Below, in pieces: positions 14,683 to 64,000 of a stretch of DNA of 64,000 nucleotides (position 1 is its first letter; every line of letters starts with the position of its first letter). The notes under the pieces were generated by a model. The model searched no databases and was not told the DNA's origin. It was given only the letters and a program-made list of their open reading frames with translations. The DNA comes from Nostoc sp. JL33. GTDB taxonomy: Bacteria > Cyanobacteriota > Cyanobacteriia > Cyanobacteriales > Nostocaceae. The position numbers and the translations under genes were made by a program. The stretch lies in contig NZ_JABXKP010000008.1 in NCBI RefSeq assembly GCF_017114985.1, forward strand, positions 1-64,000, written 5' to 3'.

Positions 14683-17600
14683 ATGACTCATTCTTTCCTT
14701 GAACGCCTACGTAGTCCAGATAGACCAGTCCTCGTCTTCGACGGGGCAATGGGAACCAACTTACAAACGCAAAACTTGACTGCTGAAGACTTCGGCGGCC
14801 CACAGTATGAAGGCTGTAACGAATACTTAGTCCACACGAAACCCGAAGCTGTTGCTAAGGTTCACCGTGACTTTCTCGCTGCTGGTGCAGATGTGATTGA
14901 AACCGATACCTTTGGCAGTACGTCCCTGGTGCTGGCAGAATATGACTTGGCAGACCAAGCCTACTACCTCAGCAAGACAGCCGCAGAATTGGCCAAGCGT
15001 GTGGCTGCGGAATTTTCCACGCCAGAAAAACCCCGGTTTGTGGCTGGTTCCATCGGCCCCACAACGAAACTTCCTACCTTGGGACATATTGACTTTGATA
15101 CCATGAAAGCTACTTTTGCTGAACAAGCAGAAGCGCTGTGGGATGGTGGTGTCGATTTATTTCTGGTGGAAACTTGCCAAGATGTGCTGCAAATTAAAGC
15201 GGCGCTAAATGGAATTGAAGAAGTGTTTGCCAAAAAAGGCGATCGCCGGCCGTTGATGGTGTCTGTGACAATGGAAAGCATGGGCACAATGTTGGTAGGT
15301 TCAGAAATCAGCGCGGTGGTGACAATTCTGGAACATTACCCAATAGATATTCTCGGTCTAAACTGCGCTACAGGCCCAGACTTGATGAAACCACATATCA
15401 AGTATCTGGCAGAACATTCACCTTTCATCGTTTCCTGTATTCCCAACGCGGGTTTACCTGAAAACGTCGGTGGTCAAGCGCACTACCGCCTGACACCGTT
15501 AGAATTACGGATGTCATTGATGCATTTTGTTGAAGATTTGGGTGTCCAAGTGATCGGGGGTTGCTGTGGGACGCGTCCAGAACACATTCAACAATTGGCA
15601 GAACTTGCTAAAGACTTGAAGCCAAAAGTTAGACATCCTAGCTTAGAACCAGCAGCAGCATCAATTTACACCACTCAGCCTTACGATCAAGATAATTCCT
15701 TCTTGATTGTTGGTGAACGTCTCAACGCCAGTGGTTCCAAGAAGTGCCGTGATTTGCTAAATGCAGAAGATTGGGATGGACTCGTTTCAATGGCGAGGGC
15801 GCAAGTAAAAGAAGGCGCACACATCCTTGATGTCAATGTCGATTATGTCGGACGCGACGGCGTGCGGGATATGCACGAATTAGTTTCGCGCATTGTGAAT
15901 AATGTGACACTGCCTTTAATGCTTGACTCCACCGAATGGGAAAAAATGGAGGCAGGTTTAAAAGTTGCCGGTGGTAAGTGTTTGCTGAACTCCACCAACT
16001 ACGAAGATGGAGAACCGCGCTTTTTGAAGGTGCTGGAGTTAGCGAAGAAGTACGGTGCTGGTGTAGTCATTGGTACTATTGATGAAGATGGGATGGCGCG
16101 GACAGCAGACAAAAAGTTTGCGATCGCACAACGCGCATACCGTCAAGCTGTAGAATATGGCATAACTCCCACAGAAATATTTTTTGATACCCTCGCGTTA
16201 CCGATTTCCACCGGGATTGAAGAAGACCGAGAAAACGGCAAGGCGACAATTGAATCCATCCGGCGAATTCGTCAAGAATTGCCTGGATGTCATGTAATTT
16301 TGGGTGTTTCCAATATTTCCTTTGGCTTGAATCCAGCCTCGCGGATGGTGCTGAACTCAGTGTTTTTGCACGAGGCGACGACGGCGGGAATGGATGCAGC
16401 CATTGTCAGCGCTAACAAGATTTTACCGCTCTCCAAGATTGAGGAGCGCCATCAAGAAATTTGTCGCCAGTTGATTTATGACGAGCGGAAGTTTGATGGT
16501 AACGTCTGCGTGTATGATCCCTTGGGAGAGCTTACCACAGTATTTGCTGGGGTGACAACTAAGCGCGATCGCTCCTTAGATGAAAGTCTCCCCATCCCAG
16601 AACGTCTCAAACGCCATATCATCGACGGCGAACGCATTGGCTTAGAAGAACATCTCACAAAAGCCTTAGAAGAATATCCCCCCTTAGAAATTATCAACAC
16701 CTTCCTGCTAGATGGCATGAAAGTTGTCGGGGAATTATTCGGTTCTGGACAAATGCAGCTACCCTTCGTCTTGCAATCTGCGGAAACCATGAAAGCGGCG
16801 GTGGCGTATTTAGAACCGTTCATGGAAAAATCAGAATCTGGCAACAATGGTAAGGGAACCTTTATCATTGCCACAGTCAAAGGTGATGTCCACGACATTG
16901 GTAAAAATTTGGTGGATATCATCTTGTCCAACAACGGCTACAAGGTGATTAATCTGGGAATTAAACAGCCAGTGGAAAACATCATCAAAGCTTACGAACA
17001 GCACAAAGCTGATTGTATAGCCATGAGTGGTTTGCTGGTGAAATCCACCGCTTTCATGAAAGAGAACTTGGAGATATTCAACGAAAAGGGAATTAGTGTA
17101 CCTGTGATATTAGGTGGTGCAGCGCTGACTCCCAAATTTGTGCATGAAGATTGCCAAAAAACCTACAAAGGTAAAGTTGTTTATGGCAAAGATGCCTTTT
17201 CTGACTTGCACTTCATGGATAAATTAATGCCAGCAAAAGCTACTGGTAACTGGGAAGATTTGCAGGGATTTTTGAACGAAGTCGAAACTGCTGAAGTTTC
17301 GACAAATGGTCACAAAGAATCAGTAACTACAACTGCCGAAAAAACAGTATCTGCTGAACCAAAAGAAGTAGATACAAGACGTTCGGATGCAGTAGCGATA
17401 GATATTGAACGCCCAACACCGCCTTTCTGGGGAACCAAGTTATTGCAGCCTATTGATATTCCCATCGAGGAAATATTTTGGCACTTGGATTTACAAGCTT
17501 TAATTGCTGGACAGTGGCAATTCCGCAAACCAAAGGAACAATCTAAGGAAGAATATCAGGCTTTCTTAGCTGAGAAAGTTTACCCAGTTTTGGAAACTTG

Positions 17601-60617: not shown

Positions 60618-61262
60618 CTAGGAATTGGAAGGTATTAATTTTGTCAGAGGTGTAGTCTCGCGTTCTAGTATGTAAATTTTGCGATGTTCTGTTGATTCTT
60701 CAGCATCGAGTGGAACGGTGAACACTAGATGAGCATAGTTTGTCTCTTCCTCTGCTTCCGTGAAAGGAACAGCATGACAAATGACTGGAAACCTATCTTT
60801 GCTATGCCGAATTAAAGGTTCCGCTAATCTAGCAATAATTCCAGTCCCTCCAAAAATATAGCTACGCTCTTGAGCAACTTTTAACTCAGAGAGAGTCCAC
60901 CAATTGAAAACCATATCACCGTCACTTTTATCAGCAAGTTTCCATTTTTGCCGATAGCTTTTCGGGGTTAAAGTTAACAAACCTTTACCTTCTTCAAGCC
61001 TCCTTCTTCTTGCTAAGTTCACTAAAGATGATTCAAATGCAGCGCCAATAGCGACTCTAAAATTTGAGAATTCGTCATTCAAATCATTGTAGGTTAGGAG
61101 CCTAAACATATCTCCAATCCCTTTAACTGGATCTGTAATTGCGTTGGCTACTAAGATTTGTTTGCCGTTAACAAGTTCTTCAAATTCAAACGAATCATCA
61201 ATATCAGATGGCTTAGGTGGTTTGCCAAAACCTTTTCCACCAGAGCGTTTTTCCTTTGCCAT
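60618..61262 (-). CDS. Unknown conserved-looking cytoplasmic protein
   Basis: I do not recognise this 214-residue protein. The start is the ATG at 61262 (MAKEKRSGGKGFG), with GAGG six bases upstream. It opens with a basic Gly/Lys/Pro stretch and has no signal peptide or membrane helix. It then has a folded region with DSFEFEELVNGKQILVANAI, GIGDMFRLLTYNDLNDEFSN and VNLARRRRLEEGKGLLTL. Further on are VFNWWTLSELKVAQERSYIF and GGTGIIARLAEPLIRHSKDR, and it ends with a beta-rich part. Codon use resembles the neighbours. It lies between the DUF29 gene and LPOR on the same strand, with a 59 bp gap to LPOR, so it may be cotranscribed. Confidence 0.65.
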   Translation of the reverse strand: MAKEKRSGGKGFGKPPKPSDIDDSFEFEELVNGKQILVANAITDPVKGIGDMFRLLTYNDLNDEFSNFRVAIGAAFESSLVNLARRRRLEEGKGLLTLTPKSYRQKWKLADKSDGDMVFNWWTLSELKVAQERSYIFGGTGIIARLAEPLIRHSKDRFPVICHAVPFTEAEEETNYAHLVFTVPLDAEESTEHRKIYILERETTPLTKLIPSNS

Positions 61263-61324
61263 CACTCACCTCACTTTTCTAAATCATTTATTAAGTAAAA
61301 ATGAAATTATTGCATTTTTTTCCA

Positions 61325-62299
<975 letters not shown>

Positions 62300-62518
62300 T
62301 TAATCGCCTTTTCCTATCTTCAGGATTTTACATCACTGAGTTGTACCAATATTTATTTTTGTAAATATAAGTTTAATATTTGGTAATAAATAAGCATTTA
62401 AATCAAGGTTTCTAGATAACTTGTTTGCGAAATATTAAGCTCATATTCATCTTGATACTCAATGCTCACAGATAACTTTTAGGTAGGCGATCGCTGTTCT
62501 TGTTTGTGAAGATTGTTC

Positions 62519-64000
62519 TTAATTTTCTAATTCGGCATCGTTAAAACACCACTCCTTGTGCTTTTCAGCTAATGAGAGAGGTAAAGGATACTCACATTCA
62601 GCAGAAGTCCACCAATGACGGGATCTGAGATAGTGTGTAATTACATGATGAAGTTGAAATTTATCTGGTGATGGCGTTGCTAGGATATTGTGAGCGCGTG
62701 GCTGCGGAGCTTTCCAATCTTTTCTTGGAGATGGATTGTGAGCATTATTTTTGATAATGCATTTGCCTGTTTTTGCATCACGTTTGTTTATTAATTTACC
62801 ATCTTTGTTAGTTTCTTTTTCGTATGTTCTCGATATCCAAGCTTGATAACGGCTCATCTCCTTAGCTAATTTATTAGTATCAGACTTTTCAGCAATGCTT
62901 AGGATAGTTTGAGTAAACCCAGTTACATCGCAATTTTGTGGAATGAAAATTCCTTTTGTAAAAGAAGCTGCACCTTTTATGAATGTTTCCTGTTTTGTCG
63001 CCAGTCCATATCCCTGTGGAACTTCATTGTTCATATTGTCACGTATACGAATAATGTGAATTTTGTTTGTCGGTGGTTTATCTGGCTCGAACTTGCTGTC
63101 TTGTAACCAAGTCCAATAGCTCCGAGCATTTTGACCGTGAACAAATAGATATATATCGTCAGCAGCAGAGTATGTCTGGCTCAATGTAGTCAGCATATTA
63201 CTGATAACTTGATCCCAATTAAGCTTAGATGTTCTGTGCTTTGCTAATTCGCAAATTGTATCAGGCATGGTTCTAAAATGCAGATCCCTCTGAGGTAATA
63301 ACACTCTGACTTCATTCTTATAAATTGCCACCACAATTGGCTCATTAAAACTTTGGCTTGCTGTTCTCTGGTTCCGCCGACTTACATACAAAGCAGCGTA
63401 GACGGTGTTATCGTCAGGAGTTGATAAAGGATAATTTAGGTCAAATGGCAAAATCGCATCCAAAATTGCAGCAAGAGCACGATTATAAAGATTCTGTTGC
63501 AAATCTTCGTCTGTTCTGGCTTCCCCAGTTTCATTATTATCTGCCTTCTCTGTGGACAAGATGCACTGAGGAATAAAATTATATTTAGGTAAAATAGATT
63601 TTAGATAAGGTTTTGGATCTTGATTACCACGATATCTAGGATGGTCTGGAGATAGAATTTCTACGATCATCGGCATTGGATGTTCGGGTTGATTCTGCTG
63701 CCCAAATTCTCGAATATGACGGTCAATGATAACTGTTCGACCGTTTCTTTCTATCTCTACTAGAGGATCGGCTAAACCTTCGGATGTATAAAACTCTAGA
63801 TTGAGACTGTCCCCAAAGTAATGCTTGGCAACTAATGCAAGAGCATCTCGGACTTCTTCTGTGCGGTAACGTACTTGAATAGTTAAGTTATTTGCTCGCT
63901 CAGTTAGGAAGACTTTTAATTCCTTTTCAATATTAGGAAGTTCATTTTTAGAAGATTTAGGTCTAGAAATGTTTGGCGTGTCCTTAAATCGTTGCTTAAT
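62519..64000 (-). CDS. pPIWI_RE-family protein, C-terminal part (5' end beyond the window)
   Basis: The frame stays open to the right edge, so at least 494 residues are encoded and the N-terminal domains are missing. The last 385 residues match the RNase H/PIWI-like domain of the prokaryotic pPIWI_RE family (DUF3893). Visible landmarks are an alpha/beta start (TVYAALYVSRRNQRT), DDIYLFVHGQNARSYW, the signature RIRDNMNNEVPQG with the Arg and Glu that give the RE name, and GIFIPQNCDVTGF. The C-terminal block is LHHVITHYLRSRHWWT with PLPLSLAEKHKEW. Burroughs, Iyer and Aravind proposed that such proteins work with a nuclease and a DinG-like helicase in RNA-guided conflict with plasmids or phages. 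Partner genes would lie beyond 64000. No other defence genes are seen in the window. Confidence 0.75.
   Translation of the reverse strand: MKQRFKDTPNISRPKSSKNELPNIEKELKVFLTERANNLTIQVRYRTEEVRDALALVAKHYFGDSLNLEFYTSEGLADPLVEIERNGRTVIIDRHIREFGQQNQPEHPMPMIVEILSPDHPRYRGNQDPKPYLKSILPKYNFIPQCILSTEKADNNETGEARTDEDLQQNLYNRALAAILDAILPFDLNYPLSTPDDNTVYAALYVSRRNQRTASQSFNEPIVVAIYKNEVRVLLPQRDLHFRTMPDTICELAKHRTSKLNWDQVISNMLTTLSQTYSAADDIYLFVHGQNARSYWTWLQDSKFEPDKPPTNKIHIIRIRDNMNNEVPQGYGLATKQETFIKGAASFTKGIFIPQNCDVTGFTQTILSIAEKSDTNKLAKEMSRYQAWISRTYEKETNKDGKLINKRDAKTGKCIIKNNAHNPSPRKDWKAPQPRAHNILATPSPDKFQLHHVITHYLRSRHWWTSAECEYPLPLSLAEKHKEWCFNDAELEN

Follow-up and report, generated by a model that had tools for sequence, protein, structure and literature searches.

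Organization of the pPIWI-RE locus

A stretch of 64,000 nucleotides from Nostoc sp. JL33, hereafter the window, carries part of a candidate RNA-guided defence locus of the pPIWI-RE type at its right edge. The window corresponds to bases 1-64000 of a contig of 143,478 bases (G000:C88) in a genome of 7.1 Mb, the genus of which is inferred to be Nostoc. The initial annotation, made from the sequence of the window, had recognized an open minus-strand frame at 62519-64000 as a pPIWI-RE gene continuing to the right, and had expected a DinG-like helicase and a restriction endonuclease (REase) upstream on the same strand. All of these expectations were confirmed when the contig was extended. The frame runs on past the window end to 65068 as a single open reading frame (ORF) of 849 residues, and the window (62519..64000, minus strand) holds its C-terminal 493 residues. 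With the window numbering continued beyond 64000, the whole pPIWI-RE gene occupies 62519-65068 on the minus strand and begins with TTG. Upstream of it, the same strand of the contig carries a gene for a DinG-like helicase of 1110 residues with a domain Z (65065-68397) and a gene for a pPIWI-RE-type REase of 347 residues (68394-69437), which is the first gene of the operon. Transcription goes from right to left, and the order REase-helicase-PIWI is canonical for the three-gene pPIWI-RE system. The genes overlap by four bases at both junctions (GTGA and TTGA), and therefore they probably constitute one translation-coupled unit. As judged from its frames and motifs, the locus is an intact, complete three-gene pPIWI-RE cassette of an already described kind.

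The assignment of all three proteins was indicated by profile searches. The 849-residue protein matches the Pfam profiles pPIWI_RE_X (5.6e-24; residues 32-375, the end of which lies at 63944..64000, minus strand) and RNaseH_pPIWI_RE (9.5e-21), and the PADLOC profile PprPIWI (9.7e-90), all far beyond chance. The matched part of the RNase H/PIWI domain comprises residues 616-839 (62552..63223, minus strand) and profile positions 73-284, with the first 72 profile positions unmatched. The MID domain (residues 445-539; 63452..63736, minus strand) is matched by MID_pPIWI_RE at 2.4e-5 with 25.1 bits, slightly below the cut-off of 26.6. The helicase matches pPIWI_RE_Z of Pfam (1.3e-33) and PprDinG of PADLOC (5.8e-99), and the REase matches pPIWI_RE_REase of Pfam (1.3e-27) and PprRE of PADLOC (2.7e-19). 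Domain Y was only weakly matched in the REase by PADLOC (pPIWI_RE_Y, 1.4e-4), no Pfam match to a helix-turn-helix (HTH) domain was obtained from this protein, and NCBIfam gave no match for the PIWI protein or the REase. In a sequence search against solved structures (E up to 1), no credible relative was found for the PIWI protein (P0001, P0005) or the REase, and the helicase showed only weak matches in the Walker A region to JetC (0.04-0.11). A match to alanine dehydrogenase in the same search was rejected as chance. The membership of the protein in the pPIWI-RE family is thus based on profiles and the operon.

Loss of the catalytic residues in the PIWI protein

The catalytic and family residues were located in an alignment of 35 pPIWI-RE proteins. 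An initial alignment of 32 proteins was reduced by 13 near-duplicates or fragments and supplemented with 13 plasmid proteins; lastly, one row (a second Azospirillum ORF) was removed and four Streptomyces proteins were added. The rows are not independent events, as close relatives remain and G274 and the TCL26-01 plasmid, each of 48,712 bases, look like one replicon. Partner genes were checked for part of the 35 rows.

Two aspartates, Asp525 and Asp610, one arginine, Arg639, and one glutamate, Glu718, were mutated in PsPIWI-RE from Pseudomonas stutzeri; the aspartate mutants lost cleavage, while the arginine and glutamate mutants kept it (available text of PMC10991935). The position of Asp525 is occupied by Tyr561 in the window protein (63386..63388, minus strand), and that of Asp610 by His644 (63137..63139, minus strand), so that both catalytic aspartates are lost. 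Tyr561 and His644 are invariant across the five aligned sequences of the clade to which the window protein belongs. No acidic residue is present at the first catalytic position in any of the 35 rows (Tyr in 9, Trp in 8, His in 6, Thr in 5, Ser in 4, Cys in 2, and Arg in 1), and the 13 rows dropped from the initial alignment likewise have no aspartate there. At the second position, Asp is observed in 16 of the 35 rows and Asp or Glu in 25. From these substitutions, the window PIWI protein seems unable to cut. Active and inactive RNase H members have both been described for the pPIWI-RE family (PMC3702460, in the text available), and therefore the loss of the aspartate pair does not exclude membership.

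The family arginine, a residue of the beta-sheet extension, is retained as Arg674 (63047..63049, minus strand; 34/35 rows). Both strings quoted in the initial annotation, RIRDNMNNEVP and HHVITHYLRSRHWW, are present, and the arginine of the arginine-glutamate signature that it had read as RIRDN...NEVP is indeed the family residue, located in RIR. The glutamate of NEVP is not its partner: it is Glu682, found in 21 of the 35 rows, while the position of the family glutamate corresponds to Ala792 (62693..62695, minus strand). The family motif hLE(I/L) around this glutamate reads RAHN in the window protein, and RAHN or RSHN within the clade. Glutamate occupies the position in 26 of the 35 rows; the four clade rows have Ala or Ser (Ala in the window protein, and Ala, Ser and Ala in the others), and the remaining five have Gln, Asp, Arg or a gap. 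The gap belongs to the row of Azospirillum ramasamyi, a shortened ORF; the frame of this species appears to be split within the PIWI region. The residue was termed absolutely conserved in 2013 (PMC3702460, as far as its text is available). Because the position varies among the 35 aligned rows, this feature is not strict within the family as drawn by the profiles. In the MID domain, Gln501 (63566-63568, minus strand) is conserved in 32 of the 35 rows.

The spacing of the four landmarks is 83, 30 and 118 residues in the window protein and 83, 30 and 83 in the relative G167. An insert of about 40 residues (744-783; 62720..62839, minus strand), which is not in the relatives G167 and G180, lies before the C-terminal block of the window protein. 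The gaps between the mutated residues of PsPIWI-RE are 85, 29 and 79 (PMC10991935, available sections). The values of 83 and 30 in the window protein, followed by 83 in the insert-free G167, are close to these, which supports the residue mapping.

Conserved motifs in the helicase and REase

The motifs of the two partner proteins are intact. The helicase retains four cysteines of an Fe-S type cluster, GPTGSGKS (Walker A), DEVD (Walker B) and QLIGRSTR (motif VI). Both the helicase motifs and the Cys-rich cluster located between the first of them agree with the traits of DinG. The REase retains the D..D..DAK active-site motif and a CxxC zinc ribbon. In hand-picked alignments of 12 helicases and 13 REases, the four cysteines and GK[ST] are found in all 12 helicases and QxxGRxxR in all 10 rows reaching the motif, while D..D..DxK is present in all 13 REases and the CxxC ribbon in 12.

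Since the Argonaute-like subunit appears to be incapable of cleavage, cutting in this system probably falls to the nuclease. Of the steps in the mechanism proposed below, cleavage by the REase instead of the PIWI protein is the best supported.

Genomic site and neighboring genes

The cassette is located between sdhA, a succinate-dehydrogenase-type flavoprotein gene, and a short-chain dehydrogenase/reductase (SDR) gene resembling LPOR. The initial annotation had named the latter LPOR; Pfam models support a short-chain dehydrogenase, and the more specific name has no Pfam backing. The flanking proteins with a Pfam match are encoded by ordinary genes or contain a domain of unknown function. A protein of 215 residues encoded at 60618-61265 on the minus strand has no match in Pfam, PADLOC or NCBIfam at 1e-3.

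Twenty regions between sdhA and the LPOR-like gene were fetched from the genus. Seventeen are without the cassette, and the two genes are 111 to 2623 bases apart there; L060 is a deleted or broken copy, and L058 and L059 are rearranged, also without the cassette. On the sdhA side, similarity to the window locus (L002) ends at 15523-15524 in nine of 19 regions, at 15588-15590 in another nine, and at 15509 in one; on the other side, it ends at L002 8293-8342, which equals 62293-62342 of the window. Varied small ORFs occupy the interval in most other strains (L045-L064). Because its contents vary among strains, the interval is an accessory site. Some ORFs in the 17 regions resemble, by eye only, toxin-antitoxin pairs or a TIR-type protein. 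In Nostoc sp. TH1S01, the cassette likewise follows directly after sdhA, but a different gene lies beyond the PIWI gene. The cassette of G167 is flanked by a reverse-transcriptase gene (L106:1054-4116; 1020 residues, RVT_1 1.6e-16), and a DNA-methylase-like protein slightly below the Pfam cut-off is encoded beside it (L106:4828-6120).

Nearest relatives and selection

Among named records, close relatives of the PIWI protein were found from Nostoc sp. CHAB 5715 (G333), belonging to the genus of the window, and Nostoc sp. TH1S01. In CHAB 5715, about 770 bases are missing over the helicase-PIWI junction. In TH1S01, about 730 bases are missing, and the first approximately 870 residues of the helicase are put in frame with the PIWI protein; its REase is split across at least two frames. 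The junction deletions were seen at L043:4483 and L044:9000. The resulting frame of 1718 residues in TH1S01 was considered as a natural helicase-PIWI fusion and rejected: it is the product of a deletion removing the C-terminal core of the helicase, in a draft metagenome-assembled genome where the REase is split too. All three genes are open in G135 and G167, while only fragments were found in the stretches fetched from G180 and G285, other genomes of the order.

The ratio of nonsynonymous to synonymous substitution rates (dN/dS) was computable for eight of the 11 gene comparisons tried, ranging from 0.05 to 0.23; the synonymous rate (dS) against G135 was not computable. It is 0.16-0.23 for the three genes against CHAB 5715, 0.11-0.16 for two genes against TH1S01, and 0.05-0.14 for the three genes against G167, where dS is 1.5 to 2.3 and thus near saturation. 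Such a pattern of kept, lost and broken copies is usual for defence genes and is not proof of defence.

Distribution in cyanobacteria and on plasmids

At E<=0.001, 12 of 291 genomes in the order, including the host genome, contain relatives of the window PIWI protein, and several of these matches are distant or partial. For the helicase, 37 of the 53 genomes in the genus gave matches, but a close match (96% identity) came only from G333, one of the 52 other genomes; the next-best matches by score show 29% identity, and one short piece shows 39%.

The wider family (PF13032) is present in 35 of the 53 genomes of the genus, some matches being fragments or containing stops. It was detected in 12 of 386 genomes in a sample of the phylum; three of the 12 belong to the genus, as do three listed negatives. 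The family is thus found in nine of at most 380 genomes outside the genus, and the comparison with the genus (Fisher p ~7e-30) is descriptive only, since the genomes are related.

The host genome has three pPIWI-RE loci, on contigs C88 (the window), C46 and C100. No similarity among the three PIWI proteins was detected with phmmer at E 1e-5, and therefore they look like old, separate lineages. The last two correspond to L085 and L086. The C46 locus is complete, with a PIWI protein, a domain-Z helicase and a REase. The C100 locus contains a PIWI protein, a frame of 358 residues overlapping a helicase match at C100:20252-21208, and an adjoining PLD/ResIII gene; the profile test for a REase covered the C46 locus.

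A REase motif, a helicase and a PIWI protein are encoded side by side on six plasmids from Cyanobacteriota, Alphaproteobacteria, Betaproteobacteria and Actinomycetota. Among the plasmid loci fetched, these six are the ones examined for all three genes. An insertion sequence element occupies the expected place of the helicase in one other plasmid locus. The window PIWI protein itself had no match in plasmid or phage records at E 0.01, and no relative of it was found in a pattern-seeded scan of viral contigs. A close phage- or plasmid-borne relative was thus not found in these searches.

Two plasmids encode very large pPIWI-RE proteins: one of 3100 residues on pUSDA31-1 of Bradyrhizobium elkanii (L154:5289-14591), and one of 3394 residues on a plasmid of Microvirga sp. 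VF16 (L155:738-10922). In both, X, MID and RNase H lie within the first 960 residues and are followed by a long part without Pfam match, in which an AAA_22 NTPase domain is located at 2417-2543 and 2704-2843, respectively. A separate AAA ATPase gene comes next, and upstream of both are a helicase-like gene, another gene and a WYL regulator.

Proposed mechanism and alternatives

It is proposed, at a probability of roughly 60%, that the window PIWI protein is a non-cleaving, guide-loaded sensor which brings the helicase and the REase to foreign DNA. The PIWI protein would bind a short guide through the MID pocket and would sense, without cutting it, either a strand that matches or an RNA-DNA hybrid on foreign DNA that is being transcribed. 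The helicase would then open or travel along that DNA, and the REase would make the cut, restricting phages or plasmids. Guide binding, hybrid recognition, helicase recruitment and REase cleavage are all inferences drawn from the family and from published work. RNA guidance of pPIWI-RE is a prediction in the available text of PMC3702460, and the in vitro guide data, as far as the text of PMC10991935 is available, come from one relative having the aspartates that the window protein lacks. In the papers available, no restriction of phages or plasmids with short nucleic acids as guides is demonstrated for the family.

This proposal is supported by the profiles for all three proteins, by the gene order and overlaps, and by the aspartate loss as opposed to the intact motifs of the REase and helicase. 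The dN/dS values well below 1, the patchy presence in the genus and the plasmid-borne relatives further support it. The following observations weigh against it. Structure prediction for the 493-residue part in the window, run with two homologues, gave a mean pLDDT (predicted local distance difference test) of 33.5, so that the support for the residue mapping comes from the alignment, the spacing and published work. A simple scan of 221 bases covering the gap between sdhA and the REase gene (L002 15400-15620) found no sigma-70-like promoter, where 0.9 were expected by chance. Both nearest relatives, each known from a draft assembly, carry broken copies, and thus the cassette is dispensable. Finally, no defence genes were recognized nearby: none of ten flanking proteins, seven on the left and three on the right, matched PADLOC at 1e-3. 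The locus is thus an isolated cassette, not the edge of a defence island as had been supposed in the initial annotation.

As the main alternative, the cassette would serve housekeeping or DNA repair, aiding replication or R-loop removal instead of immunity. Deletion of the P. stutzeri gene lowered survival under ciprofloxacin about 15-fold and led to filaments (PMC10991935, available text), R-loops are acted on by DinG-type helicases (PMC3702460, available text), and the ten scanned neighbors include no defence gene. Its presence, however, is patchy inside one genus, relatives are carried by plasmids, the cassette has no methylase gene, and broken copies are tolerated in relatives. A role of this kind is considered unlikely, though not negligibly so.

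The same broken copies might indicate a decaying, functionless remnant, as deletions affect the helicase-PIWI junction in the nearest two relatives, the REase frame being broken as well in one of them, and only fragments were seen in the stretches fetched from G180 and G285. All three frames are nevertheless open, with the REase and helicase motifs intact, both here and in G135 and G167, and dN/dS is well below 1 where computable, which makes a remnant improbable. Least probable of all is continued cleavage by the PIWI protein through acidic residues other than the canonical pair: PsPIWI-RE, whose described cluster includes a restriction enzyme and a helicase, has nuclease activity (PMC10991935, available text) and the landmark spacing of the window clade is close to it, but the aligned catalytic aspartates are Tyr and His, invariant in five clade sequences.

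The sensor model may tentatively be extended to three-gene systems in general, although this wider claim is more doubtful than the model for the window itself. As a rule, the Argonaute-like subunit would be a non-cutting sensor and the REase the effector; the window clade would be an extreme case, where the second aspartate and the family glutamate are also lost, and Nostoc species would stack several divergent systems in parallel as one main form of nucleic-acid-guided immunity. The rule is based on the first catalytic acid, kept in 0 of the 35 sampled pPIWI-RE rows, and on the nuclease motif, which all 13 sampled REases retain, with PsPIWI-RE as a known exception. A stricter version, which required a dead PIWI protein in every three-gene system, was dropped: PsPIWI-RE is active, and its described cluster contains both a restriction enzyme and a helicase (PMC10991935, text as available).

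The pPIWI-RE systems were predicted in 2013, and the experimental work found since is the PsPIWI-RE study, in a literature search that covered neither bioRxiv nor most subscription papers. An intact cassette whose PIWI protein has neither known catalytic aspartate could directly test the division between a PIWI sensor and a REase cutter. Nostoc looks suited to studying the family, with matches in 35 of 53 genomes and three loci in the host alone.

Comparison with known systems

Catalytically inactive prokaryotic Argonautes act with partner effectors, so that a MID-PIWI sensor that does not cleave is paired with a distinct effector. Short prokaryotic Argonautes are treated in PMC12948488. The proposed division of labor in the window system would be analogous, and the relation would be only distant. 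The window system has domain X instead of PAZ or APAZ, and a DinG-like helicase as the third partner.

PsPIWI-RE is similar to the window protein in landmark spacing. Unlike the window protein with its Tyr and His, it has Asp525 and Asp610, and it cleaves single-stranded DNA with RNA guides and RNA with DNA guides (PMC10991935, available text).

The closest counterpart is the three-gene pPIWI-RE operon described in 2013 by Burroughs, Iyer and Aravind, who reported strict conservation of the REase-helicase-PIWI order (PMC3702460, here and below in its available text; PprRE, PprDinG and PprPIWI in PADLOC). Cyanobacterial members were already known then, an Acaryochloris REase having been used as a query. 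The window system shares with this operon the gene order, overlapping genes and patchy distribution, and also the domain layout: X-MID-RNase H in the PIWI protein, Z with a DinG-like helicase, and a zinc ribbon with a REase. It differs in that the window clade has Ala or Ser for the family glutamate and has lost both catalytic aspartates, and in that the window protein carries the insert of about 40 residues and its REase has no matched HTH domain. Inactive PIWI modules acting as sensors are already provided for in the 2013 model (PMC3702460), and the window clade, to judge from its residues, would be a clear case of such a module.
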